Shown here: piece by piece, positions 16,096 through 38,712 of the stretch
Position numbering within the stretch: position 1 is the stretch's first letter
Layout of the letters: every line of letters starts with the position of its first letter
Origin: Opitutaceae bacterium
GTDB taxonomy: Bacteria > Verrucomicrobiota > Verrucomicrobiia > Opitutales > Opitutaceae
NCBI GenBank assembly: GCA_028280945.1
Contig: JANQKV010000060.1
Span: 1-64,000, forward strand
Direction of reading: 5' to 3'
Length of the DNA: 64,000 bases
Translations under genes and position numbers: made by a program
The notes under the pieces: generated by a model
Databases searched by the model: none
What the model was told of the DNA's origin: nothing
What the model saw: the letters and a program-made list of their open reading frames with translations, nothing else

Positions 16096-16173
16096 GTCCC
16101 TATCGTCTAGTCAGGTCTAGGACACCACCCTTTCACGGTGAGAACCGGGGTTCGAATCCCCGTGGGGACGCCA
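16096..16173 (+). tRNA. tRNA-Glu (anticodon TTC)
   Basis: A complete cloverleaf can be drawn. The acceptor stem GTCCCTA pairs with TGGGGAC (one T:G), the anticodon stem-loop is 'CACCCTTTCACGGTG' with TTC, and the T-arm is 'CCGGGGTTCGAATCCCCG'. The discriminator G is at 16170, followed by an encoded CCA at 16171-16173. Its 3' end contains the 21-bp att core of the mobile element. The integrase gene of that element ends on the opposite strand inside this tRNA. Confidence 0.95.
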
Positions 16174-17436
16174 TTTTTTTTCTAAGTCAGATTGCGACAA
16201 ATCGCGACCAAGCGCCTCTGAACCAGCAGGTTCCGAGGCGTTGTCGTTTGTGGTGGTTGTGACAGCATGAGACAAGAAAAGCCTCTCTGTGCCTGATTTT
16301 TGTGGGGCTATTTGTGGGTGTGTTCCGTTTTCGCCGTCATTTGTGGCGCTCAGCCAAGGCAAAGACTTCACCGCCGAAAAAGTCGGTAGGTGTTTAGGGT
16401 CGGTGTAGACCTTCGCGGTGAGCTTCGGATCGCTGTGCCGCATCAATTCTTGGGTCGTGCGCTGGCTGGTTCCTTCGACAGCCAGATTGGTCGCGAACGT
16501 ATAACGCAAGGCATGAAAATCCAGCTTACGGCCCATTGCATCAATGCGCTCGATACTGGCGCGTGCCATGTCCCGACGGATTGCATGGGAGATGTCCCGC
16601 ATCTTCGGAAATACCGCCGTATCAAGTGAGGCGTTCGCCGGTCGGGTCTCATTGAGCATGTCAGCAAGCTGCGGATGCAAGGGAAGTGCAGCATCCTTGC
16701 TGTCCTTGGTCGTTACCGCCCGCGCCCAGATATAGGCATGGTCCGCCTCAAAGCGAATGTCGCCCCAGACCAATCCGATGAGTTCTGATTTGCGCAACCC
16801 GGTATAGGCTGCGGTGAGGTAAACAAGCTGACGGTTTGGATTGGCTGCTTTCAGCAACGCAATGAATTCGTCTTTGGTAAAAGCCCGGCGTTGTTGCTGG
16901 TGGCCGCGCGTATCCACCTTTTTAACACGGGCGAGGGGATTGGCGACGATGCGCTGCCTATCGATCATCCAGTTCAACAAAGCCCGCACGGCATCAAGAT
17001 GGTCATTCAGGGTCTTTGGCGAATAGCCATCCTGGCGCGTTCGCCAAAGTCCAAAGCTGTCTGCACTGATGTCTTGAGCAAAGGTCCATTGGCATTCGGT
17101 TAGCAGTCGATTAACGCGCGTATTCAGTCGATCGGTATAGTCTTTACCCCTTTTGAGTGACTTCAAATCGTCCAAGAAGTCTTGGAGATGGTCGCACAGC
17201 GGTGTTTTTGCCGCCTCTCGTTGCGCGGTTGGTGCAATGATACCCGCCCTTTCGCGCTCCTTCGCCTTGATGATGTTGCTGAGCTTCTTTTCGGCGGTTT
17301 GCTTGTCCGGTGTGCCAAGCGCGACTTCTTTAACGGAGAAATCCCCGTCAAGGCGATAACGGCCCCGGTAGAGCCGTGCAGGAACGGATTTGCCCGCCGC
17401 ATTTTTGCGCCGGGGCTTGTAGACATGTGCGATCAT
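16117..17436 (-). CDS. Tyrosine recombinase (integrase) of the tRNA-Glu element
   Basis: A 439-residue phage-type integrase. The N-terminal arm-binding/core-binding region (1-175) starts 'MIAHVYKPRRKNAAGKSVPA'. The catalytic domain has Arg in 'AAYTGLRKSELIGLVWG', the HxxR box 'FHALRYTFATNLA', His in 'LMRHSDPKLTAKVYTD' and the nucleophile Tyr in 'KVYTD'. The gene points towards attL and its last residues (about 424-439) are encoded antisense to the tRNA: 'PHGDSNP' is the att core, then 9 more residues to a TAG at 16117. In the excised circle the frame would run on into sequence now at attR (see 38500-38691). An excisionase-like gene lies 96 bp upstream. Confidence 0.93.
   Translation of the reverse strand: MIAHVYKPRRKNAAGKSVPARLYRGRYRLDGDFSVKEVALGTPDKQTAEKKLSNIIKAKERERAGIIAPTAQREAAKTPLCDHLQDFLDDLKSLKRGKDYTDRLNTRVNRLLTECQWTFAQDISADSFGLWRTRQDGYSPKTLNDHLDAVRALLNWMIDRQRIVANPLARVKKVDTRGHQQQRRAFTKDEFIALLKAANPNRQLVYLTAAYTGLRKSELIGLVWGDIRFEADHAYIWARAVTTKDSKDAALPLHPQLADMLNETRPANASLDTAVFPKMRDISHAIRRDMARASIERIDAMGRKLDFHALRYTFATNLAVEGTSQRTTQELMRHSDPKLTAKVYTDPKHLPTFSAVKSLPWLSATNDGENGTHPQIAPQKSGTERLFLSHAVTTTTNDNASEPAGSEALGRDLSQSDLEKKWRPHGDSNPGSHRERVVS
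16147..16167 (+). repeat. attL core: left copy of 21-bp direct repeat in tRNA-Glu
   Basis: These 21 bases of the tRNA T-arm and acceptor strand (from GGGGTTCGAATCCCC to GTGGGG) recur exactly at 38692-38712 in the same orientation. Between the copies lies a 22,545-bp lower-GC segment with an integrase at its left end, which is the classic signature of tRNA-targeted integration. Confidence 0.93.
16298..16319 (+). promoter_or_regulatory. Putative integrase arm-type binding sites, left (paired TTTGTGGG)
   Basis: A 22-bp string identical to 38612-38633. It contains TTTGTGGG twice with a 12-bp period (16299-16306 and 16311-16318). Related TTTGTGG copies lie at 16247 and 16340, all in the same orientation and inside the 3' part of the integrase gene. 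The distance to the att core is 130 bp. Direct repeats on both sides of the core are the hallmark of arm-type sites bound by the N-terminal domain of tyrosine integrases. The function is inferred. Confidence 0.65.
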
Positions 17437-18713: not shown

Positions 18714-18917
18714 TCACCGCTCCCGTCCGCTTTGCATCCCTCGGAAACGCTTTGCTTCAATCTGCTTCCGCCGGACAAAAACCATCTTTTCCCGCTTGAG
18801 GGATTCAACTAGTGCCTTGCGCTTAATAGGGTCCGGCTTTTGGCCCAGCGTGCGAGCAAGGATTTCAACGTCGCGCTCGGTAGCGATTTGCTTAGGAAGG
18901 TTGTTGGCGGTGTTCAT
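18714..18917 (-). CDS. Small basic protein coupled to sigma factor gene
   Basis: A 67-residue basic protein ('LARTLGQKPDPIKRKALVES', 'FVRRKQIEAKRFRGMQSG') whose ATG overlaps the stop of the sigma-like gene (ATGA at 18914-18917). No family is recognised. The coupling suggests a joint role with the sigma factor, such as a modulator, but this is inference. Confidence 0.6.
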   Translation of the reverse strand: MNTANNLPKQIATERDVEILARTLGQKPDPIKRKALVESLKREKMVFVRRKQIEAKRFRGMQSGRER

Positions 18918-19549
18918 GAGAGAGTGCTTTCTGCGTTGTTAAGGTAAGTAACGATGGCCGCTTTGCTGAGTGCGACCCAATCGCCGACAGTGGAAACCGG
19001 CTTGCCGATGCGCTCGGCGATTTCCTGAAAGGTGTATCCGTAGCGCAGGCTCAGCCAAGCGGCTTTGCGTTGGGGTTCGGTCAGTTCAATGCCGGGAAGC
19101 TCTGCCCAGAATTTTGCCTCAAACCGGGCTTCTTCCTGTTCACTGGCCGGGCTGGTTGGTGGCGCAATCGCGGCGGGCATGTCTTCGACATTTTCCACCA
19201 CGGTTTCACGGGATTTCTGCCGCCGGTAATGATCCAGAAACAGCAGGTAGGCTTTGCGGCGCAGCAGCGGCAATTGGCCGATTTTTTCAAGCGGCACATG
19301 CTTGAGGCAGTAACGCCAGAGATCAGACACGATGTTTTCCGCGTCCTGCCATTGCCGCGTATAGCGATAGGTCAGCCGCACCAGATATTCATGATACCGG
19401 TCAACGGCCTGCGTGACACGCTCAAGGCGCAGATCAAATTCAGCTTCGGCTTGGTCGGAGGTTTGGGTTTTGGCGGAGAGAAGCATGACAGGTTGGTTGC
19501 TTACCCCTGTAACGCAGCCGGATCGGAAGAAATCCGGCGCGGTTGGCAT
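18914..19549 (-). CDS. ECF-like RNA polymerase sigma factor
   Basis: A 211-residue protein with a sigma-70 region 2-like segment ('YLVRLTYRYTRQWQDAENIV', 'RRKAYLLFLDHYRRQKSR') and a C-terminal region 4 helix-turn-helix ('YTFQEIAERIGKPVSTVGDW'). It lacks other sigma regions, as in extracytoplasmic-function sigma factors. It lies in a leftward cluster with the coupling-protein gene and two small genes of similar base composition, so it may direct transcription of the element's transfer genes. The ATG at 19549 is used; an internal ATG at 19486 would shorten the N terminus by 21 residues. Confidence 0.75.
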   Translation of the reverse strand: MPTAPDFFRSGCVTGVSNQPVMLLSAKTQTSDQAEAEFDLRLERVTQAVDRYHEYLVRLTYRYTRQWQDAENIVSDLWRYCLKHVPLEKIGQLPLLRRKAYLLFLDHYRRQKSRETVVENVEDMPAAIAPPTSPASEQEEARFEAKFWAELPGIELTEPQRKAAWLSLRYGYTFQEIAERIGKPVSTVGDWVALSKAAIVTYLNNAESTLS

Positions 19550-19972: not shown

Positions 19973-22219
19973 CTATCGCCCCTGGAAATCCGGATCAGGA
20001 TCATAGCGATTGGACCGACGACCGGGGTTCAATCTTTCAGCGAGGGTCTTTCGGTAATAAGGCACTTTTTCGATCAGCAGCGGGTGCTCACCAGCACGCA
20101 GGATATATTGCAGGCCGGTCGAGGTGCCGACTTCCAGCCGCACAGCGCTCGGATCCCGCAGCGGGATCGCGTTGGATGCGGTGGTCATGCTGAGCGCACC
20201 TGTGGTGGACCGGGTGCCCAGCTCCTTGCTGACATATTCGCGAGTGAAAGGGTCATCGACCGAAAAGGCCTGCACGGCGCGGCAGTTGCCCAGGAATGTA
20301 TCCATGTCTTTGGGATAGTATTTTTTGAGCTGAGAGAGGCTCTGCACAAATGGCCAGAGGGTTAGATTGTAGCTAGCAGCGACAGAAAACGCGCTGACCA
20401 CTTCCTCCATATGGCCGAGTTCTGGAAACTCATCCATGAGCATCAGCACCGGAGTTTTTGATCGGCCGCCCTGGTAGATCTGACGGATCACCAGATTCAC
20501 AAAGAGCCGCAAAAACCTCTTGTTGGCTTTGATGTCGCTGGGCGGCAGGACGAGATAAACGGTGGTCGGCTTTTCTTTGAGCTCCTGAAAGGAAAAGGTC
20601 GGGTCATCCGACATGGTGGCGGCGATATCACTGTTACGCAGCCATTCGGTCTGCGCGTTAGCGTTGGACAGGATGTTCTTAATCTCCTGCGTATCCAGCC
20701 CGTCAATGATGCGGGCTGCCGTTTCCATCGGTATTTTCCCGGCCCCGTCATTGACGCTCATGGAAGCATAGAGGTCGGCTTTCTCCTCATCCCCATAGCT
20801 GAAAAACTCCCGGATCAGGGAGAGGGAGGCCTGATGGCTGAATTCCGGGCTGGTCAGCATGTGGGCAATGAAGCCGCGCAAAACGGTTTTAGCACCTTCG
20901 CTCCAATGGTCATCCTCCTTCTTGGTTGGATCGGACACGACCAGCGCATTGACGATAAAATCAATGTCGCGATGGATGGAGCCCCTTCTCGGGTTAAACC
21001 CTTCAAGTGGGTTAAAGCTGTTCATATACCTGCCTGGTAGCACCTGCATGGGATCGATGACATACACGTTCTGTCCCATCTGCCTACGTCTGCGTGCGGT
21101 CACCGCTGCATTGGTGCCTTTGGGGTCAATTACCACGCAGCTTCCTTTCCATTCCAACAGATTCGGAATTATCGCCGTGGTGCCTTTGCCGCCTCTGGTT
21201 CCGGCAATGGTCAGCATATGCCGGTCATCTTTCAGATAGAGGCGCTGAAAGGGATTGAACATCGATGCGCCCAGAAACAACCCGCCTGAGTTATTCTCAG
21301 GGAGGTAGCGCCATTCCTCAATCATCCCTTCAAAACGTCCCGCACCGCCAAACCCCATCCGGCCTTGATCGAGGAATTTCAGGATAGGGCTGATGCATTT
21401 GAAGACAACGCTTCGGCCGACACCGGCGAAGAGTAGTGATAGCACTGTGGCGATGGACAACAACAGTAACAAATTGTCACGCAATGCGTATAGCCATATT
21501 GTTAATGCGATTTTAGGAATATTATACTCTTCCAATCCCTCGCGTGCTTTCTCGAGTGCTTTTTGCTCTTCTCCCTTAAACACCAATAAGATTAAGCTAT
21601 CTTGATCTAGGGCGAATGGCTCCGTTCCAGGTGGAACCACCGTGCTATAAGGAATTCCATTCTCTACCTTGATGACACTCATCATCACCCCCACTTGAAT
21701 TGCCATTTTCGCTAAAATCTCTCTTTCGGAACCAACTCCAAATAATATATACGAGTGGATATCCCGATATATTTTTGTATATCGGTTAGGGAGATCTGAA
21801 CCTTCAGCGAGTAGTAGCCCATTTTTAATATAGGCTTTGGTTGTTGCCCGATCCCATGTGCCTTGATGAAACAGTGATCCTATAGAGCCGATGAAAACCA
21901 GCGTCATAATAACGATACAAATCCACGCAACGCCCTGGCAGCGCCTTACGAATTTTGTGGCGGTAAATCTCTGCGCATTGGGGAATACCCCTCCCACCAT
22001 GTAGCGGAACACCGGTCCGATGATAAACCAGAGGATGACGGCCCAGATCACGACCTGAATGTAGAATTCGGCGGACCGGTCGAGCCCGTCAGTTGGGGCC
22101 AGCGCCATGCTGACAAAGGCCACCGAAATCAGCCCAAAAAGCGCCACATCACTTAAAATCGGAGCAAGGTGCCAGGCCAGCAGCACGGCGACAAAAAACA
22201 AGATGATCTTACGCAGCAT
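19973..22219 (-). CDS. Type IV coupling protein (VirD4/TraG family)
   Basis: A 748-residue membrane ATPase. The N-terminal ~250 residues hold several hydrophobic segments ('IILFFVAVLLAWHLAPILSD', 'IQVVIWAVILWFIIGPVF'). Walker A is 'IAGTRGGKGTTAIIPNLL' (around 338-350), followed by 'KGSCVVIDPKGTNAAVTARR', and Walker B is 'PVLMLMDEFPELGHMEEV' (around 590-605). The family couples the relaxase-DNA complex to a type IV secretion channel. No VirB genes are visible, so the element probably borrows a channel from a helper. It leads the leftward backbone cluster (coupling protein, small basic protein, sigma, small protein). Confidence 0.92.
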   Translation of the reverse strand: MLRKIILFFVAVLLAWHLAPILSDVALFGLISVAFVSMALAPTDGLDRSAEFYIQVVIWAVILWFIIGPVFRYMVGGVFPNAQRFTATKFVRRCQGVAWICIVIMTLVFIGSIGSLFHQGTWDRATTKAYIKNGLLLAEGSDLPNRYTKIYRDIHSYILFGVGSEREILAKMAIQVGVMMSVIKVENGIPYSTVVPPGTEPFALDQDSLILLVFKGEEQKALEKAREGLEEYNIPKIALTIWLYALRDNLLLLLSIATVLSLLFAGVGRSVVFKCISPILKFLDQGRMGFGGAGRFEGMIEEWRYLPENNSGGLFLGASMFNPFQRLYLKDDRHMLTIAGTRGGKGTTAIIPNLLEWKGSCVVIDPKGTNAAVTARRRRQMGQNVYVIDPMQVLPGRYMNSFNPLEGFNPRRGSIHRDIDFIVNALVVSDPTKKEDDHWSEGAKTVLRGFIAHMLTSPEFSHQASLSLIREFFSYGDEEKADLYASMSVNDGAGKIPMETAARIIDGLDTQEIKNILSNANAQTEWLRNSDIAATMSDDPTFSFQELKEKPTTVYLVLPPSDIKANKRFLRLFVNLVIRQIYQGGRSKTPVLMLMDEFPELGHMEEVVSAFSVAASYNLTLWPFVQSLSQLKKYYPKDMDTFLGNCRAVQAFSVDDPFTREYVSKELGTRSTTGALSMTTASNAIPLRDPSAVRLEVGTSTGLQYILRAGEHPLLIEKVPYYRKTLAERLNPGRRSNRYDPDPDFQGR

Positions 22220-23603: not shown

Positions 23604-23816
23604 CTTTCAGAAATTTTTAAATTTCCCGCCCGCAGACTTCCGCTTTGCCCTGATCTTGGGCTACATCGCCTCATACTGCGGCATTTCTGCTCCCGGCCTG
23701 AGCAAAGCGGAAGACAGCTCCCTCCCTTCTTTTAGCAAAAGAACCAAAAGGGCCGCGCAGTCTCAGACAGCACAAACAAGGTGTTTGCACCGACTGCTTG
23801 GTGCGCGGCTATCCAG
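23604..23816 (+). repeat. Long direct repeat, copy 1
   Basis: About 213 bp from 'CTTTCAGAAATTTTT' to 'GCGCGGCTATCCAG' that recur at 26328-26538 with high similarity and a few small differences. It includes the shared block 'AGCAAAAGAACCAAAAGGGC'. No stable gene runs through either copy. The two copies bracket two AT-rich genes, suggesting an insertion or duplication event in the cargo region. Confidence 0.85.
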
Positions 23817-26327: not shown

Positions 26328-26538
26328 CTTTCAGGAATTCTGAATTTCCCGCCCACAGACTTCCACTTTGCCTAGGCCGTGGCTCCATCGCTTCATCCTT
26401 CGGTATTTCCGCTCCCGGCCTAGGCAAAGCGGAAGACAGTTCCCTCCCTTCTTTTAGCAAAAGAACCAAAAGGGCCGCGCAGTCTCAGACAGCACAAACA
26501 GGGTGTTCGCACCGACTGCCTGGTGCGCGGCTATCCAG
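26328..26538 (+). repeat. Long direct repeat, copy 2
   Basis: About 211 bp matching 23604-23816 in the same orientation with scattered substitutions and a 1-bp length difference near the left end. Similarity stops sharply after 'GCGGCTATCCAG'. It lies 90 bp upstream of the AlpA-like gene of the second integration module. Confidence 0.85.
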
Positions 26539-26631: not shown

Positions 26632-26985
26632 ATGTTCTTAATCAAAAGTGCGTGGAACCAGGTAGCGAAAAGCCCCGACGGGAAAAACCAACCGATTGGT
26701 CTGTATGGAGATTTGGCGCGATCAGACCTCATCAAAATGATTGGCTCGCTTGAGGCAAAAGTCGCCAGACTTAGTAATCAAATGCTGAACAAGAAAGAAG
26801 TCGCCATGCGGGCAGGCATGACCGTTTCGTGGCTTGATAACAGTCGAAGTCCTAAAGCGTGCAAACTTCGCGCTATCGGGATACGATATGGTTCGACGCA
26901 GACTTCGCCGGTGCGATATCCACTTTCTGAGGTAGTGGATATCTGCCTTGAGGACGAATCTAGATCGGTAAGCCAAATCCAGTAA
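26632..26985 (+). CDS. AlpA-like DNA-binding protein of second integration module
   Basis: A 117-residue protein preceded by a strong ribosome site (AAAGGAG, 7 bases before the ATG). The C-terminal half has an AlpA/Xis-type helix-turn-helix: 'LNKKEVAMRAGMTVSWLDNS', then 'IRYGSTQTSPVRYPLSEV'. The N-terminal half is hydrophilic. It converges on the P4-type integrase gene, overlapping its 3' end by 26 bp. AlpA proteins activate or direct their cognate P4-type integrase, so this is the likely excisionase/activator for module 2. Confidence 0.7.
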   Translation: MFLIKSAWNQVAKSPDGKNQPIGLYGDLARSDLIKMIGSLEAKVARLSNQMLNKKEVAMRAGMTVSWLDNSRSPKACKLRAIGIRYGSTQTSPVRYPLSEVVDICLEDESRSVSQIQ

Positions 26986-28141
26986 GCCGATCCGCCCACC
27001 ATTGCATCATGTCGCGCCGCTCATCCAGATACTCGGCCCGGTTGTAGCTCGCCCGGACGCTGTTCTTATCAACGTGCGATAGTTGCCTCTCAATTACGAG
27101 CGAGCGGAATAATCCGCTTTCATGCAAAGCAGTTGAACCGGTGGTCCTAAAACCATGCACCGTCGCTTTGCCCTTATAACCCATGTCCCACATGGCTTTG
27201 GTCATGGTATTTTCGCTCATGTAGGGATGTTTGCCCGATTCACTGGGAAATAAATACTCTCCATCGCTGTAGTCCTTCCGCATCTCCTCGAGCAGATCGA
27301 TGCATTGGCTGGATAAAGGGACCAAATGATCGCGTCTCATTTTCATGCGTTCGGCCGGAATGCTCCAAACCCGGTTTGCGAAGTCGATTTCATGCCACAT
27401 TGCTTTTCGTAACTCAGATGTTCGGGTCAGCGTCAGTAGAATCAAAAGGAGCCCATATTTCCCACGCCATTTACGAGAGGTATTGTCCAGTTTTTCAAAA
27501 AACTCCGGCAACTGATCTTTTGGTAAAAAGGCAAGATGCTTGGGCCGGTGTTTCTTAAAAGCGTCCCGGATATCCGCAGCCACATCACGTTCGGCTTTGC
27601 CAATAGCAATGGCATAGCGAAATATGTTTCCGAGATATCCTCTGGCATCCGCCAAAGCGTCCAGTGCATCACGTTCCTCGAACTTTCGCAACGCTCTGAT
27701 TAGCTGAGGAGCGGTGATTTCACCAATCACTTCGTTTCCGATGTCCGGAAATATGTCTCTTTCCAGAAGTCGTAGAATACGAACTGACCGTCTGGTCGAC
27801 CAATCACCCGACCGCTTTGAATGCCATTCGCGGGCTACCTTTTCAAAAGAGCTCTCGTAAGCGGCTTTCTCCTGCCTTTTTCGACTAGCCTTCTCAGCGC
27901 CTGGGTCGACTCCGTCCTCTATCATTTGACGGGCTGCAAAAGCTTTCTCTCTCGCTCGTTTGAGACTTATCTCCGGGTAACGACCGACACCATAGGTCTT
28001 CCTCTTCCCATTAAAACGGTAATCCATTCGCCAGAACTTTCCACCCGATGGAGTGACATACAGGTATAGTGAATTGGCGTCAGCCAACTTGTATGATTTT
28101 TCTCTTCCTTCAGCCTGCTGGCAGACTATCGCCGTTAGCAT
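26960..28141 (-). CDS. P4-family tyrosine integrase (DUF4102 type)
   Basis: A 393-residue integrase of usual P4 length. The N-terminal arm-binding domain is 'SYKLADANSLYLYVTPSGGK' plus 'GVGRYPEISLKRAREKAFAA'. The catalytic Arg lies in 'LTRTSELRKAMW', the HxxR box in 'TVHGFRTTGSTALHE', His in 'QLSHVDKNSVRASYNRAEYL' and the nucleophile Tyr in the same stretch. A ribosome site AAAGGAGG precedes the ATG at 28141. This family typically inserts into tRNA-Leu and other tRNA genes; about 180 bp upstream lies a tRNA-Leu 3'-end-like core flanked by arm repeats. It is intact, so module 2 should be functional. Confidence 0.92.
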   Translation of the reverse strand: MLTAIVCQQAEGREKSYKLADANSLYLYVTPSGGKFWRMDYRFNGKRKTYGVGRYPEISLKRAREKAFAARQMIEDGVDPGAEKASRKRQEKAAYESSFEKVAREWHSKRSGDWSTRRSVRILRLLERDIFPDIGNEVIGEITAPQLIRALRKFEERDALDALADARGYLGNIFRYAIAIGKAERDVAADIRDAFKKHRPKHLAFLPKDQLPEFFEKLDNTSRKWRGKYGLLLILLTLTRTSELRKAMWHEIDFANRVWSIPAERMKMRRDHLVPLSSQCIDLLEEMRKDYSDGEYLFPSESGKHPYMSENTMTKAMWDMGYKGKATVHGFRTTGSTALHESGLFRSLVIERQLSHVDKNSVRASYNRAEYLDERRDMMQWWADRLTGFGLPI

Positions 28142-28167
28142 TAGCCGCCTCCTTTCTCTGGTAAGAT

Positions 28168-28198
28168 ATACCGTCGATTATACCGTCATATACCGTCA
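28168..28198 (+). promoter_or_regulatory. Arm-type repeats (TATACCGTC x3), int side of attP2
   Basis: TATACCGTC occurs at 28168, 28180 and 28190 in the same orientation. The first two, with a 12-bp period, form a 21-bp string (28169-28189) that recurs exactly at 28397-28417 on the other side of the tRNA-Leu-like core. They lie in the 5' leader of the P4-type integrase, where they could also autoregulate it. Confidence 0.65.
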
Positions 28199-28319
28199 GT
28201 GTAAATATGAAATTATAGATATGTATATAGGATCTATTTCCTATTTCCTTCTGTAATTCATGATGAAAGCCAAAAATTAGAATAAAATATAATAGGAAAA
28301 TATGTCTATTTTGAGATAA

Positions 28320-28343
28320 TGGTGCCCAGGAAAGGACTTGAAG
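28320..28343 (-). other. Putative attP2 core: tRNA-Leu 3'-end-like sequence
   Basis: On the minus strand this reads as the T-loop and 3' acceptor part of a tRNA-Leu: 'CTTCAAGTCC' then 'TTTCCTGGGCACCA', including CCA. The sequence before it cannot form the matching T-stem or any cloverleaf, so it is not a gene but a 3'-end copy, as carried in attP of P4-type elements. TATACCGTC repeats flank it on both sides. Confidence 0.65.
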
Positions 28344-28395
28344 GAGGGCTCTAACCTATTGATTCGACTTCAAAACCTATTTCTCGGTTTTCACA

Positions 28396-28416
28396 CATAC
28401 CGTCGATTATACCGTC
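28396..28416 (+). promoter_or_regulatory. Arm-type repeats (ATACCGTC x2), distal side of attP2
   Basis: CATACCGTC at 28396 and TATACCGTC at 28408 with a 12-bp period reproduce the integrase-side pair. The gap to the core is 53 bp. The presence of arms on both sides indicates an unrecombined attP rather than an attL or attR. Confidence 0.62.
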
Positions 28417-28443
28417 AGTTGATTCCTTCACACCAAGCAGCCT

Positions 28444-28639: not shown

Positions 28640-28760
28640 GCGCTGCCGCGCTGACTGGCCTGCGGCGTTTGCAGGATAGCAAGCTGTGTTTTTGTAAACA
28701 AAAACGCTTGCAAGGGGGTTAGGCACCCCCGTTGACCCCGCCACCCGTGCGCAGGTGTGC
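28640..28760. other. Putative origin of transfer (oriT) with IncP-like nic motif
   Basis: Upstream of mobC lie a minus-strand TATCCTGC (28678 to 28671), matching the YATCCTG|Y nic consensus of MOBP systems, then GTTTTTGT-AA-ACAAAAAC and GGGGGT-TAGGC-ACCCCC inverted repeats. No gene occupies it. Its place directly before mobC and the relaxase gene is where oriT is normally found. The exact nic position is inferred. Confidence 0.6.
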
Positions 28761-28818
28761 GCACTTGTTCCTGCGACCGGTTATCCCTGTCGGCCCCATC
28801 GTAAAAGGAGTTATACGA

Positions 28819-29163
28819 ATGGCCCGTCCCCGGAAACCTCACTGCCAGCGCAAAACCCGTGTCGTCAGCTTTAGGCTGACCGATACGGAATTTGCGGGCT
28901 TTGCCGCTTTGGCGGCGAAAGCCAATCTGCGCGTCAATGACCTGGTGCGCGTGGTGGCGCTTTCGCGCCGTGAGCACGTTACCATCAAGACCTATGCCGC
29001 TTACGATCCTGCTTTGCTGGCCCAGCTTCACAAAATCGGTGTGAACCTCAACCAGCTTACCAAGCACGCCCATGCCGGGCGTATGTCCTCACAGATTGAG
29101 CATCTGTGCGACCAGATTGAAGCCCTTATCTGCGATGCCGCAGAAAAGGAGCTTAATCCATGA
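28819..29163 (+). CDS. MobC-like mobilisation accessory protein (ribbon-helix-helix)
   Basis: A 114-residue protein; the ATG at 28819 follows AAAGGAG with good spacing. It begins 'MARPRKPHCQRKTRVVSFRL' with an RHH-type strand-helix pattern and ends in the MobC-like segment 'DPALLAQLHKIGVNLNQLTK'. MobC proteins bind oriT and help the relaxase to melt and nick DNA. Its last bases overlap the relaxase ATG (ATGA at 29160), so the two are made together. Confidence 0.85.
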   Translation: MARPRKPHCQRKTRVVSFRLTDTEFAGFAALAAKANLRVNDLVRVVALSRREHVTIKTYAAYDPALLAQLHKIGVNLNQLTKHAHAGRMSSQIEHLCDQIEALICDAAEKELNP

Positions 29164-30596
29164 ACCCGGACATCACGCGCGGCGGGTGCAGCTTCAAGGG
29201 CGCGTTTCAGTATTATCTGCATGACCACGGCACAGATACGCGCGAGCGCATCGCATGGACTGAAACTGAGAACATGCTCACTGGTGACCCGGACAAGGCT
29301 TGGAAGGTCATGGCCTATACGGCCACGCACCAGGACCGGCTTAAAATGGCCTCCGGCCAAAACCCATCCGGCCGTAAACTCGAAAAGCCGGTCATGGCCT
29401 ATTCGCTTAACTGGCATCCTGAACAAGACCCATCCCGCGACCATATGCTGGATGTGGCGCGGCAATCTATGGTCGTGCTGGGCTTGCAGGAGCATGAAGC
29501 GATCATCGTGGCCCATCGCGATACGCCGCACCGACACGTTCATGTCATGGTTAACCGGGTGCATCCGGTGACCGGTATGGTTGCCAGTAACTCAAACTCC
29601 AAACGGAAGCTGCAAAACTACGCCCGCGTCTACGCCAAGGAACACGGTCTCACCTACAGCCCCATGCGTGAAGAAAATGCTCAGAAGCGGGAAGCCGGAG
29701 AGCCCACGCCCAAAGTCGATCAAAATATGCAAGACGCATGGCGGCAGTCTGACAGTGGCAAGGGGTTGATCGCCGCTCTTGATGAACGTGGCTTTAAGGG
29801 GGCGCAGGGCCGTAAGGCCCGGTTCGTTGTCGTGGACCGGTATGGTGACATCAAAAACCCTGTGCGCCTGATTCCCGGCATCCGCACGAAGGACATGCAT
29901 GAGCGTTTGAGGGACGTGGATGTTTCCACGCTCCCGGATGCTGATGCGCTAGCCAAGCAGCGACGCACGGAGCACGCCCAACAAAAGCCAGAAAAGAGCA
30001 GACAGGCCGCGTTGGACCGCGCGCCGGATCTCAAACAAAAGGTTGAAAAGGCTGTGGGACAGGAAACGCCCAAACCAAAGCTGAAGCTCGCCTTCGATCA
30101 GGCCCGCGAGAGGGATCGACAGCTTGGCGAGAAGATCGGTGAAAAATTGGCCAATCTGCAAAGCCGACAACTGGATGAACGCGGCAAGCTGGCCCAGAAA
30201 CACGCATTGAGGCTCACGCGGCTAAAGGAGGAGCTATCTGCTTTCTACCAGTTACCAGAACAGCGCGATAAGATCACCGCTCTACAGGAAAAGTGCCGCA
30301 ATCCGTCCATCTGGCGCAGACTGTTCGGACAGGCTCGCAGGGACCGGCAGGAACTGATTGATACCACTAAATCTTTCCGCAATGCACAGATGCGCTGTAA
30401 GGAACGCATGGATAGCTTAAAGGTGCAGAACACTGCCGAAATGAATATGCTCAAGTCTCGCCAGCAATTGGTTCGGACTAATGCAAACCAAAGGCTATTC
30501 AGAGACAGAGGTAGGATCATAGGTCATTACGCCGATGCGCGGATGTCAGAACGGAATGACAATTCAGAAAAACTGTATACCCAGCGCGGGCGATGA
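29160..30596 (+). CDS. MOBP-type relaxase (mobilisation nuclease)
   Basis: A 478-residue protein. The N-terminal relaxase domain has candidate catalytic tyrosines Tyr18/Tyr19 in 'SFKGAFQYYLHD', and the metal-binding three-His motif in 'HRDTPHRHVHVMVNR' (His119 then His124, His126, His128). The C-terminal half is basic and helical ('EKIGEKLANLQSRQLDERGK'), with probable DNA-binding or coiled regions. It nicks oriT and leads single-stranded DNA into a recipient. Text such as 'IAWTETENM' and 'MAYTATHQDR' recalls relaxases of alphaproteobacterial mobile elements. The stop lies 1 bp from the convergent TIR-like gene. Confidence 0.92.
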   Translation: MNPDITRGGCSFKGAFQYYLHDHGTDTRERIAWTETENMLTGDPDKAWKVMAYTATHQDRLKMASGQNPSGRKLEKPVMAYSLNWHPEQDPSRDHMLDVARQSMVVLGLQEHEAIIVAHRDTPHRHVHVMVNRVHPVTGMVASNSNSKRKLQNYARVYAKEHGLTYSPMREENAQKREAGEPTPKVDQNMQDAWRQSDSGKGLIAALDERGFKGAQGRKARFVVVDRYGDIKNPVRLIPGIRTKDMHERLRDVDVSTLPDADALAKQRRTEHAQQKPEKSRQAALDRAPDLKQKVEKAVGQETPKPKLKLAFDQARERDRQLGEKIGEKLANLQSRQLDERGKLAQKHALRLTRLKEELSAFYQLPEQRDKITALQEKCRNPSIWRRLFGQARRDRQELIDTTKSFRNAQMRCKERMDSLKVQNTAEMNMLKSRQQLVRTNANQRLFRDRGRIIGHYADARMSERNDNSEKLYTQRGR

Positions 30597-30597
30597 C

Positions 30598-31725
30598 TTA
30601 ACTTTCCTGCTCAGGTCCGTCGATAAGTCCCTCTCGTTCCAGAACCCGCCGAATTTCTTCAAAAGTGTCGGATATCTTCCCTTTTGGAAATCTGATCTGA
30701 CCAAGACCATGAACGTTGCTGAATTCTTCACAGTCCTCCTCCAAAAGTATGATTGCGCGCTCAAATCCAAGTCTACCTTGGAAAAGACCAGCTTCGTGAA
30801 TCACGTTCATCCGGGCGTGCTGCTTCCCATCAGCTTGTTCATCTTCCGCTGTTAGAATTAGGAACGCAATTTCCGCATCATCTAGCATCTGAAGTAGTCG
30901 GCTAATGGTTGTCATTCCTGCTACAGGAACGCGGTTGAACTCATCGCAAGGTAGCCTCAGGCGTTCACGAACAAAATCGCGTAATTCCTTCCAGGCACTT
31001 GAACGACCATGTCCCAAAAAAACATGGGTTCCTTGTCGTGAAATCGTTTTTTCTTTCTTTTCTAGGCTTTGAAAATGTGACGCTCCTCGTCGAGCATGCT
31101 TAGCCAGGCTTTTACATAAGATAAATGGTTGGCGCCAAGTTCCAATCAACGCCAGCATGTGAATGTGTGGCGGCGTCTGGATTCCCTGCCCAGCGGCAAC
31201 AGAATCTCGGGTAAAAAACTTCCCCTTGCCTTGGAAAAACCGTGCAAAGTCTGAATGACCCAACACCTTCTCTTTGCTTATTTTTTCCTCAAGAGTCTGA
31301 AGAAAGTTGTCATTCGCAAACTCAGATCTCCAACGAGTAAGCGCTGACAAAATTTCCTCTTTAGCATCCTCAAAATATTCTACGGTTTCCCTAGCTTCAG
31401 CAGTGAGTTGTTCGGTATCGGGCTTTCCAGCGCGTTCTTCGATCTGCGAGATAACCCAGTCAAAATCATATTCTCCCCAACTGCCAACAGTCTCATTACT
31501 GAATTGATCTCCAAACCCCCATTCAGAGCTGAATCGAGCTCCAGGTGGAGTCGGATCCAGATTTTCATAATATACACGCGAATGATAGCCAAGCCATGAT
31601 CCACTCCAAGCTTTCGCAATCTGAGTCGAAGCTTCTTCAATTCTATCAATCATCGATTTATTTATAGCCTTGGATCTATCGCTTAAATCGTCAGCAATTT
31701 TAAATATATCTTCCGCTTTAGACAT
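30598..31725 (-). CDS. TIR-like domain protein (CAP12/PF10137 type), putative defence effector
   Basis: A 375-residue protein. The C-terminal domain (about 235-370) matches the predicted nucleotide-binding TIR-like family: 'THVFLGHGRSSAWKELRDFV', 'MTTISRLLQMLDDAEIAFLI', 'ARMNVIHEAGLFQGRLGFER' (likely catalytic Glu in 'HEAGLFQG', near 312) and 'QIRFPKGKISDTFEEI'. Such domains degrade NAD+ in CBASS-, Pycsar- or TIR-type immunity. The N-terminal ~220 residues are helical, charged and unrecognised, possibly a sensor. No cyclase or SMODS gene is adjacent, so it would be a stand-alone system. It is AT-rich cargo, convergent with the relaxase. Confidence 0.78.
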   Translation of the reverse strand: MSKAEDIFKIADDLSDRSKAINKSMIDRIEEASTQIAKAWSGSWLGYHSRVYYENLDPTPPGARFSSEWGFGDQFSNETVGSWGEYDFDWVISQIEERAGKPDTEQLTAEARETVEYFEDAKEEILSALTRWRSEFANDNFLQTLEEKISKEKVLGHSDFARFFQGKGKFFTRDSVAAGQGIQTPPHIHMLALIGTWRQPFILCKSLAKHARRGASHFQSLEKKEKTISRQGTHVFLGHGRSSAWKELRDFVRERLRLPCDEFNRVPVAGMTTISRLLQMLDDAEIAFLILTAEDEQADGKQHARMNVIHEAGLFQGRLGFERAIILLEEDCEEFSNVHGLGQIRFPKGKISDTFEEIRRVLEREGLIDGPEQES

Positions 31726-34071: not shown

Positions 34072-34680
34072 CTAATTCTGCCAAATTTTGCTTATCAGAT
34101 CCCGTTCATCTTTGCCGACGAAATCTAGGTATATGGCTGTGTTCTCAAGGCTGGCGTGGCCCATCCACTTCTTCAGCTTTGTGAGCGGGATATTCTGCAT
34201 GACACAAGAAATCGCAAAGCTGTGTCGCAGACCCCGTGCGGTCGCTTTTACGCCCTTGAGCCCGGCGTGAGCCATGACCTTTTTGATCCGCCGCCAGCCG
34301 GTGGAGCGAACAAAGCCCCAAATCCGATCATCCGGTTTAAGGTCGGCATTCTGGATAATCTGGCGGAATAGGTTCAACAGTTCATCCGGTATTGGAATGA
34401 CCCGATATTGACCTTTCTTGCGCTGTTTAAGGGTTTCCAAGACGAGGCACCCTTCAGCTAAATCAATGTGACTGGCGGTTAGGCGCAGGGCTTCAGTCAT
34501 GCGGCAGCCAGTGTAGAAGAAAATTAGGCAGAAAGCCTGATCTAGCGGGGATTCCAACGCCTTGGCAGCATCGTAGAAGCACCCACGTTCCAGCGCGTTG
34601 AGATACTTTCTGTATCCATCCTTATCATACAGTCTTGTCGCGATTTTCACCCCCGCAACCGAATGGATATTCGGTTTCAA
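34072..34680 (-). CDS. Short tyrosine recombinase (FimB/FimE-sized)
   Basis: A 202-residue recombinase with essentially only the catalytic domain: Arg in 'FFYTGCRMTEALRL', Lys in 'TLKQRKKGQYR', box II 'ATARGLRHSFAISCVM' with Arg where His is usual, then 'LTKLKKWMGHASLENTAIYL' with the nucleophile Tyr. Similar short enzymes are found on plasmids and as DNA invertases. The first codons lie inside inverted-repeat site B, and a matching site A lies just beyond the stop. It is neither needed for nor obviously linked to the tRNA-Glu integration. Confidence 0.85.
   Translation of the reverse strand: MKPNIHSVAGVKIATRLYDKDGYRKYLNALERGCFYDAAKALESPLDQAFCLIFFYTGCRMTEALRLTASHIDLAEGCLVLETLKQRKKGQYRVIPIPDELLNLFRQIIQNADLKPDDRIWGFVRSTGWRRIKKVMAHAGLKGVKATARGLRHSFAISCVMQNIPLTKLKKWMGHASLENTAIYLDFVGKDERDLISKIWQN
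34655..34678 (-). repeat. Core-like recombination site B (overlaps start of small recombinase)
   Basis: GCAACCGAAT-GGAT-ATTCGGTTTC, a near-perfect palindrome whose first 18 bases are the exact reverse complement of 34003-34020. It overlaps the ATG and codons 2-9 of the recombinase gene, so recombination here could affect its own expression. Confidence 0.6.
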
Positions 34681-38691: not shown

Positions 38692-38712
38692 GGGGTTCGA
38701 ATCCCCGTGGGG
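38692..38712 (+). repeat. attR core: right copy of 21-bp direct repeat
   Basis: Exact copy of 16147-16167. The following bases (GCCGCCA) resemble, but no longer match, the tRNA 3' end (ACGCCA), as expected of a displaced, unselected tRNA fragment. Host-like high-GC sequence resumes right after. Confidence 0.92.

Follow-up and report, generated by a model that had tools for sequence, protein, structure and literature searches.

The window, a 64,000-nucleotide stretch of a contig from an Opitutaceae bacterium, contains a 22.5-kb island at a single locus, approximately 16146-38712, with tRNA-Glu(TTC) as its host gene (Table 1). This is the sole tRNA that ARAGORN reported in the window region. 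The enzyme that docked the island there is presumably integrase 1, whose orthologues, 50-55% identical, lie by tRNA-Ser, tRNA-Glu and tmRNA in the related islands E2, E4 and E3, respectively. Its reading frame terminates within the tRNA-Glu gene (window 16117-16173), so that its last codons are supplied by the target after insertion, and the frames of the Xer-like integrases of E2, E3 and E4 likewise reach or cross the end of their tRNA or tmRNA.

Table 1. Features of the tRNA-Glu island, by position in the window
Feature	Position	Strand	Basis or remark
attL of the resident island	16146..16173	+	3' part of tRNA-Glu(TTC); whole gene 16096-16173
Integrase 1, Xer-like tyrosine recombinase at the tRNA end	16117..17436	-	family matches and orthologues
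Sigma-70 region 4-like regulator, backbone gene	18914..19549	-	family search and relatives
VirD4/TraG-type coupling protein	19973..22219	-	family matches
Small protein, putatively DNA-binding; 'AlpA-like' as judged by eye only	26632..26985	+	context
Integrase 2, P4-type tyrosine integrase, full length	26960..28141	-	Pfam
Integrase-side arm repeats of attP	28167..28197	.	three TATACCGTC
attP core, tRNA-Leu-like 3' end, T-loop to CCA	28320..28342	-	TTCAAGTCCTTTCCTGGGCACCA, 23 nt
Distal arm repeats of attP	28396..28417	.	21-bp repeat of the integrase-side arm
Putative oriT, hairpin then TATCCTG|C	28671..28711	-	conserved in relatives
MobC/NikA-like accessory protein	28732..29163	+	family match
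MobA/VirD2-type relaxase	29160..30596	+	family matches
int3, third tyrosine recombinase, 202 aa, conserved backbone gene	34072..34680	-	relatives
attR	38692..38712	+	21-bp copy of the tRNA-Glu 3' part

Counting int3, the island holds three tyrosine recombinases; int3 is reminiscent in size of FimB-type invertases and is kept in at least seven related loci at 34-49% identity. A TIR-domain protein like the CAP12/Pycsar effectors (30598-31725, minus strand) and a DUF4365 protein are likely to be defence cargo, and no cyclase partner for the TIR protein was recognised among the genes scanned. Two direct repeats of about 200 bp (23615-23816 and 26338-26538), 89-92% identical and each with an inverted repeat inside, enclose a 2.5-kb segment just ahead of the AlpA-like gene.

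The mobilisation block begins with a putative oriT placed between attP and mobC, in which a hairpin and CATCTTGCTATCCTG are conserved upstream of mobC in relatives, and whose DNA fold has a z of -3.3. Its motif resembles the MOBP/IncP nic consensus, which would place nic at 28672|28671. The true start of the MobC/NikA-like protein is probably 28819. An integrase of its own with att borders, a relaxase, a putative oriT marked by the conserved hairpin and nic-like motif, and no complete mating-pore apparatus that I could recognise are the features of an integrative and mobilizable element. Apart from the coupling protein, none of the 20 window ORFs scanned matched a mating-pore family, and I therefore class the island as such an element and not as a P4 satellite phage. 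Capture of a 'P4-like circle', as the preliminary description had suggested, finds no support here: the element ORFs scanned include no P4 replication primase/helicase or satellite regulatory gene, and the neighbours of the P4-type integrase are the oriT-like site, MobC, the relaxase and VirD4.

A second integrase and its attP

Integrase 2 was correctly described at the outset as a P4-family enzyme. Pfam recognises its Arm-DNA-bind_3, Phage_int_M and Phage_integrase domains, so that arm-binding, central and catalytic parts are all present, and the expected catalytic residues R240, K267, H329, R332, H356 and Y366 are intact in it and invariant in the four islands that carry the unit. The label AlpA-like for the small gene beside it fared less well, as the protein has no match in Pfam, NCBIfam or PHROG, and none on plasmids. 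It accompanies the P4 integrase in 4/4 islands with the unit and is a candidate recombination directionality factor. A tblastn search of plasmids returned many P4-type integrases, all below 60% identity, and relaxases with less than 80% coverage; there was no match to the whole element. Judged by the plasmid-borne relaxase relatives and by named integrase loci, the class to which the compared genomes belong is probably Alphaproteobacteria.

The core sits about 180 bp upstream of integrase 2. Its description as a copy of a tRNA-Leu 3' end that cannot itself form a tRNA holds in substance, since it is Leu-like and ARAGORN finds no tRNA there, although it extends over 28320-28342 and not to 28343. 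Chance similarity is not borne out: at up to three mismatches the core has a single match in the 64-kb window, and dinucleotide shuffles give a mean of 0.00. It differs by three mismatches from host tRNA-Leu(GAG) and by three from a 3' fragment of tRNA-Leu(TAG), by 5-6 from the other host Leu tRNAs, and by at least six from each of 36 tRNA-like 3' ends of the host, none of them Leu, that were compared. In relatives, every match at up to two mismatches that coincides with an ARAGORN gene call is a tRNA-Leu. No exact copy was found in the host assembly, although the host may still have one, since a whole tRNA-Leu(UAG) gene is missing from its assembly. Nor was one found in 95 relatives and 384 class genomes (overlapping sets), among which the nearest matches, both tRNA-Leu, have one mismatch; most of the genomes are drafts. 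The closest matches found, in the host and in related genomes, are tRNA-Leu, as expected in the preliminary description, but not exact. Searches of viral contigs gave no exact second copy of this core and no matches to the cores of E2 and E3.

Other tRNA-like sequences occur in the assembly that includes the window's contig (G000:C56). The 3' half of a tRNA-Leu(TAG), from the anticodon loop onward and without its 5' half (L004, G000:C63:70865-70913), looks like an att remnant. A phage-like array at G000:C70:105699-107200 (L089) contains at least seven divergent tRNA genes, and on the window's contig itself a tmRNA-type 3' end occurs twice, 13 kb apart (142000-142023 and 155068-155091), probably marking another integrated element.

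The attP as a whole spans 28167-28417 and has the layout of P4-type sites: one core, integrase-side arms between this tRNA 3' end and the integrase, and a second, matching set of arms beyond the core. The 21-bp direct repeat ATACCGTCGATTATACCGTCA reported on both sides is exact (28168-28188 and 28397-28417); it had been said to hold two motif copies on each side, but the integrase-side arm has a third TATACCGTC (28189-28197), and in the distal arm the first copy is CATACCGTC, leaving one exact TATACCGTC there. The two flanks of the core have a 21-mer in common, against a longest common word of 12 in 200 mononucleotide shuffles. Of 11 related P4-type integrase loci in bacterial genomes, 10 have a tRNA or tmRNA immediately upstream of the integrase, and in most there are tandem arm repeats between core and integrase. 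One of them, L007, is integrated at tRNA-Arg; its attL holds one arm pair, and the second pair is found at the far end, in attR, next to a 16-bp core copy, with arm-core spacing similar to that in the window. Because the equivalent arm pairs of an integrated element are split between its two ends, as had been argued earlier from the window, the window attP can be read as unrecombined. Judged from its sequence, the attP of integrase 2 is intact, and the proposal that two integration systems share one tRNA-Glu element is upheld.

A P4-type element nested inside the tRNA-Glu island, or lying in a tandem accretion, would make this 'attP' an attL/attR junction. Accretion of integrative elements is well documented (PMC5357655, PMC5704250), and in viral contigs many P4-type integrases have upstream of them a junction with a core but no full tRNA, probably as a result of tandem accretion; of 43 P4 integrase loci there, 29 are without a called tRNA on the same strand within 700 bp. 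In the window such an origin is disfavoured and I consider it highly improbable: nesting should leave at least two core copies, whereas there is no second copy in 64 kb of the window, 86 kb around E2 or 100 kb around E3, and the arms form a matched pair. Moreover, synteny with E2, E3 and a third related locus, E5, extends to either side of the core, so the integrase side and the oriT-mobilisation side belong to one element.

The unit in related islands

Related islands were sought in 252 family genomes with the integrase and relaxase as queries. Three of those found have target-gene repeats at their borders, separated by 29.4 kb in E2 (G015:C87; tRNA-Ser), 32.8 kb in E3 (G233:C54; tmRNA) and 31.3 kb in E4 (G015:C143; tRNA-Glu). 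They share with the window island the Xer-like terminal integrase, the sigma-like gene, the coupling protein, the MobC-relaxase pair and int3. The P4 module is present at 4/17 relaxase loci. E2, E3 and E5 (G447:C174) repeat the window's order and orientation of AlpA-like gene, P4 integrase, attP, oriT side, MobC and relaxase, and in each a CCA-ended core of its own (ACTCCTCCCGAGCGCGCCA in E2, GAATCCCATCCTCACCTCCA in E3 and TCGACTCCGGTCCGTGCCTCCA in E5) stands between two sets of arms, at distances comparable to those in the window. In E2 and E3, as in the window, the bounding integrase is Xer-like and not P4-type, and sits in another tRNA or tmRNA; borders were searched for E5 and none were located. 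Three further islands with the same unit, order and orientation speak against the one-off capture or fusion that had been envisaged. Between the window and E2 or E3, the P4 integrase, the relaxase and integrase 1 are all 46-55% identical, and this similar degree of divergence fits an old association of the three.

The preliminary description also looked to related elements docked at tRNA-Leu by this integrase, and here the search came back empty: no family member integrated through its P4 site was found, and no backbone genes, as a sign of reciprocal docking, lie within 10 kb of tRNA-integrated P4 integrase loci. A class-wide profile search added P4-type integrases that lack an adjoining tRNA and have a CCA-ended core between two sets of arms. 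The intact-looking P4 attPs of G358, G362, G392 and G437:C27 are not counted here towards dual docking, as they lie in elements without located borders, where tandem accretion is possible. In G519, a P4 integrase from this search adjoins a MobA/MobL relaxase, a TraG-like protein and another tyrosine integrase. This locus (L158/L159, G519:C2, about 70-90 kb) is a different mobilisable island, which also carries type I restriction and HipA, and its P4 integrase has a core with arms on both sides.

The P4 integrase and attP could instead be a passenger, a functional but unused leftover that came with the mobilisation module by fusion or recombination of circles and is carried only for its position beside oriT and mobC. 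The patchy distribution of the P4 module is as modular exchange would give, as are the unrelated tyrosine recombinases that three P4-less relatives (G063:C17, G587:C3 and G447:C155) have 0.3-1 kb upstream of mobC, and a matching target was not found in the host. Leftovers should decay, yet the integrase ORF and its catalytic residues are intact and the arm sets still match in four diverged islands, and I regard the passenger origin as possible but doubtful.

Two probable docking systems in one element

Because the arrangement recurs in related islands, the P4 module looks like a second docking system that has been kept, and not like an accident. I consider it probable, from anatomy and comparison, that the island is a two-attP mobilisable element that integrase 1 docked while integrase 2 and its attP stand in reserve. 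Its circle would carry two attPs, of which integrase 1 has used one, in tRNA-Glu; the other, placed between integrase 2 and the oriT/MobC/relaxase block, would remain unrecombined inside the island, since it was integrase 1 that inserted the present copy. On this view integrase 2 would be active and might offer the choice of insertion site that the preliminary description envisaged, and selection would keep the module. After conjugation integrase 2 could then dock the circle at a matching tRNA-Leu gene of the recipient, and in a cell that offers both targets the island could be divided by a second recombination, as bipartite ICEs are. Since that step splits bipartite ICEs, an intact second attP may be seen mainly in hosts without a good second target. 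A further step, which I put forward tentatively, is that a mobilisable-island lineage of alphaproteobacterial type keeps a swappable second integrase-attP unit by its oriT and either docks at one or the other tRNA gene, according to the recipient, or splits between the two; equally tentatively, such a lineage might be a small mobilisable counterpart of the bipartite ICEs.

If integrase 2 works, the island could settle in recipients that lack its first target or have it altered or occupied. This would mean a wider bacterial host range and coexistence with resident elements. It would also offer a tractable 22.5-kb model for the first step in the evolution of bipartite elements, so far known in the cited literature from large symbiosis ICEs. 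I found no description of two integration systems in mobilisable islands in the open-access literature. A caution for annotation follows: the border of an island is not necessarily where a P4-type integrase and its tRNA-like core are found.

In the bipartite symbiosis ICEs, a two-attP circle enters one site, and the second attP then recombines with another chromosomal target, splitting the element and inverting or deleting the chromosome between the targets (PMC9174649); tripartite ICEs have three integrases and three attPs (PMC5882170). The island might be such an element before its second step, or unable to take it. This overlaps the two-attP reading that I prefer; the difference is that being split would be the usual state. 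The published topology after step one is identical, and step one would freeze without a good tRNA-Leu target. A circle with more than one integrase and an attP for each is likewise predicted here from sequence, but the window island is not spread over two or more loci, E2, E3 and E4 are each bounded at a single locus, and no split family member was seen; a normally split state is thus unlikely.

The Bradyrhizobium and Mesorhizobium bi- and tripartite ICEs (ICEMcSym1271; PMC9174649, PMC5882170) nevertheless remain close parallels, in that one circle carries several tyrosine integrases with their own attPs and another attP stays intact within the element after the first integration. They are large, conjugative and normally split, whereas the window island is 22.5 kb, mobilisable and unsplit, and its second integrase is P4-type and lies beside oriT; the likeness drawn here is one of arrangement. 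CGI48/GI21 of Shewanella putrefaciens (PMC8978831) also has a second integrase system within a tRNA-gene island, but there the inner island has recombined and both attL21 and attR21 are present, in contrast to the single unrecombined core of the window. Known integrative and mobilizable elements (PMC5704250, PMC5357655) share the tRNA-targeted integrase, oriT-like site, MobC and relaxase, with no mating-pore genes recognised; the window island goes beyond them in its second complete integrase-attP system and its own VirD4-type coupling protein. Finally, the P4-type integrase islands at tRNA and tmRNA genes (L006-L016) resemble the window in integrase family, arms and core spacing, but they are integrated through the P4 site, and the window copy is not.
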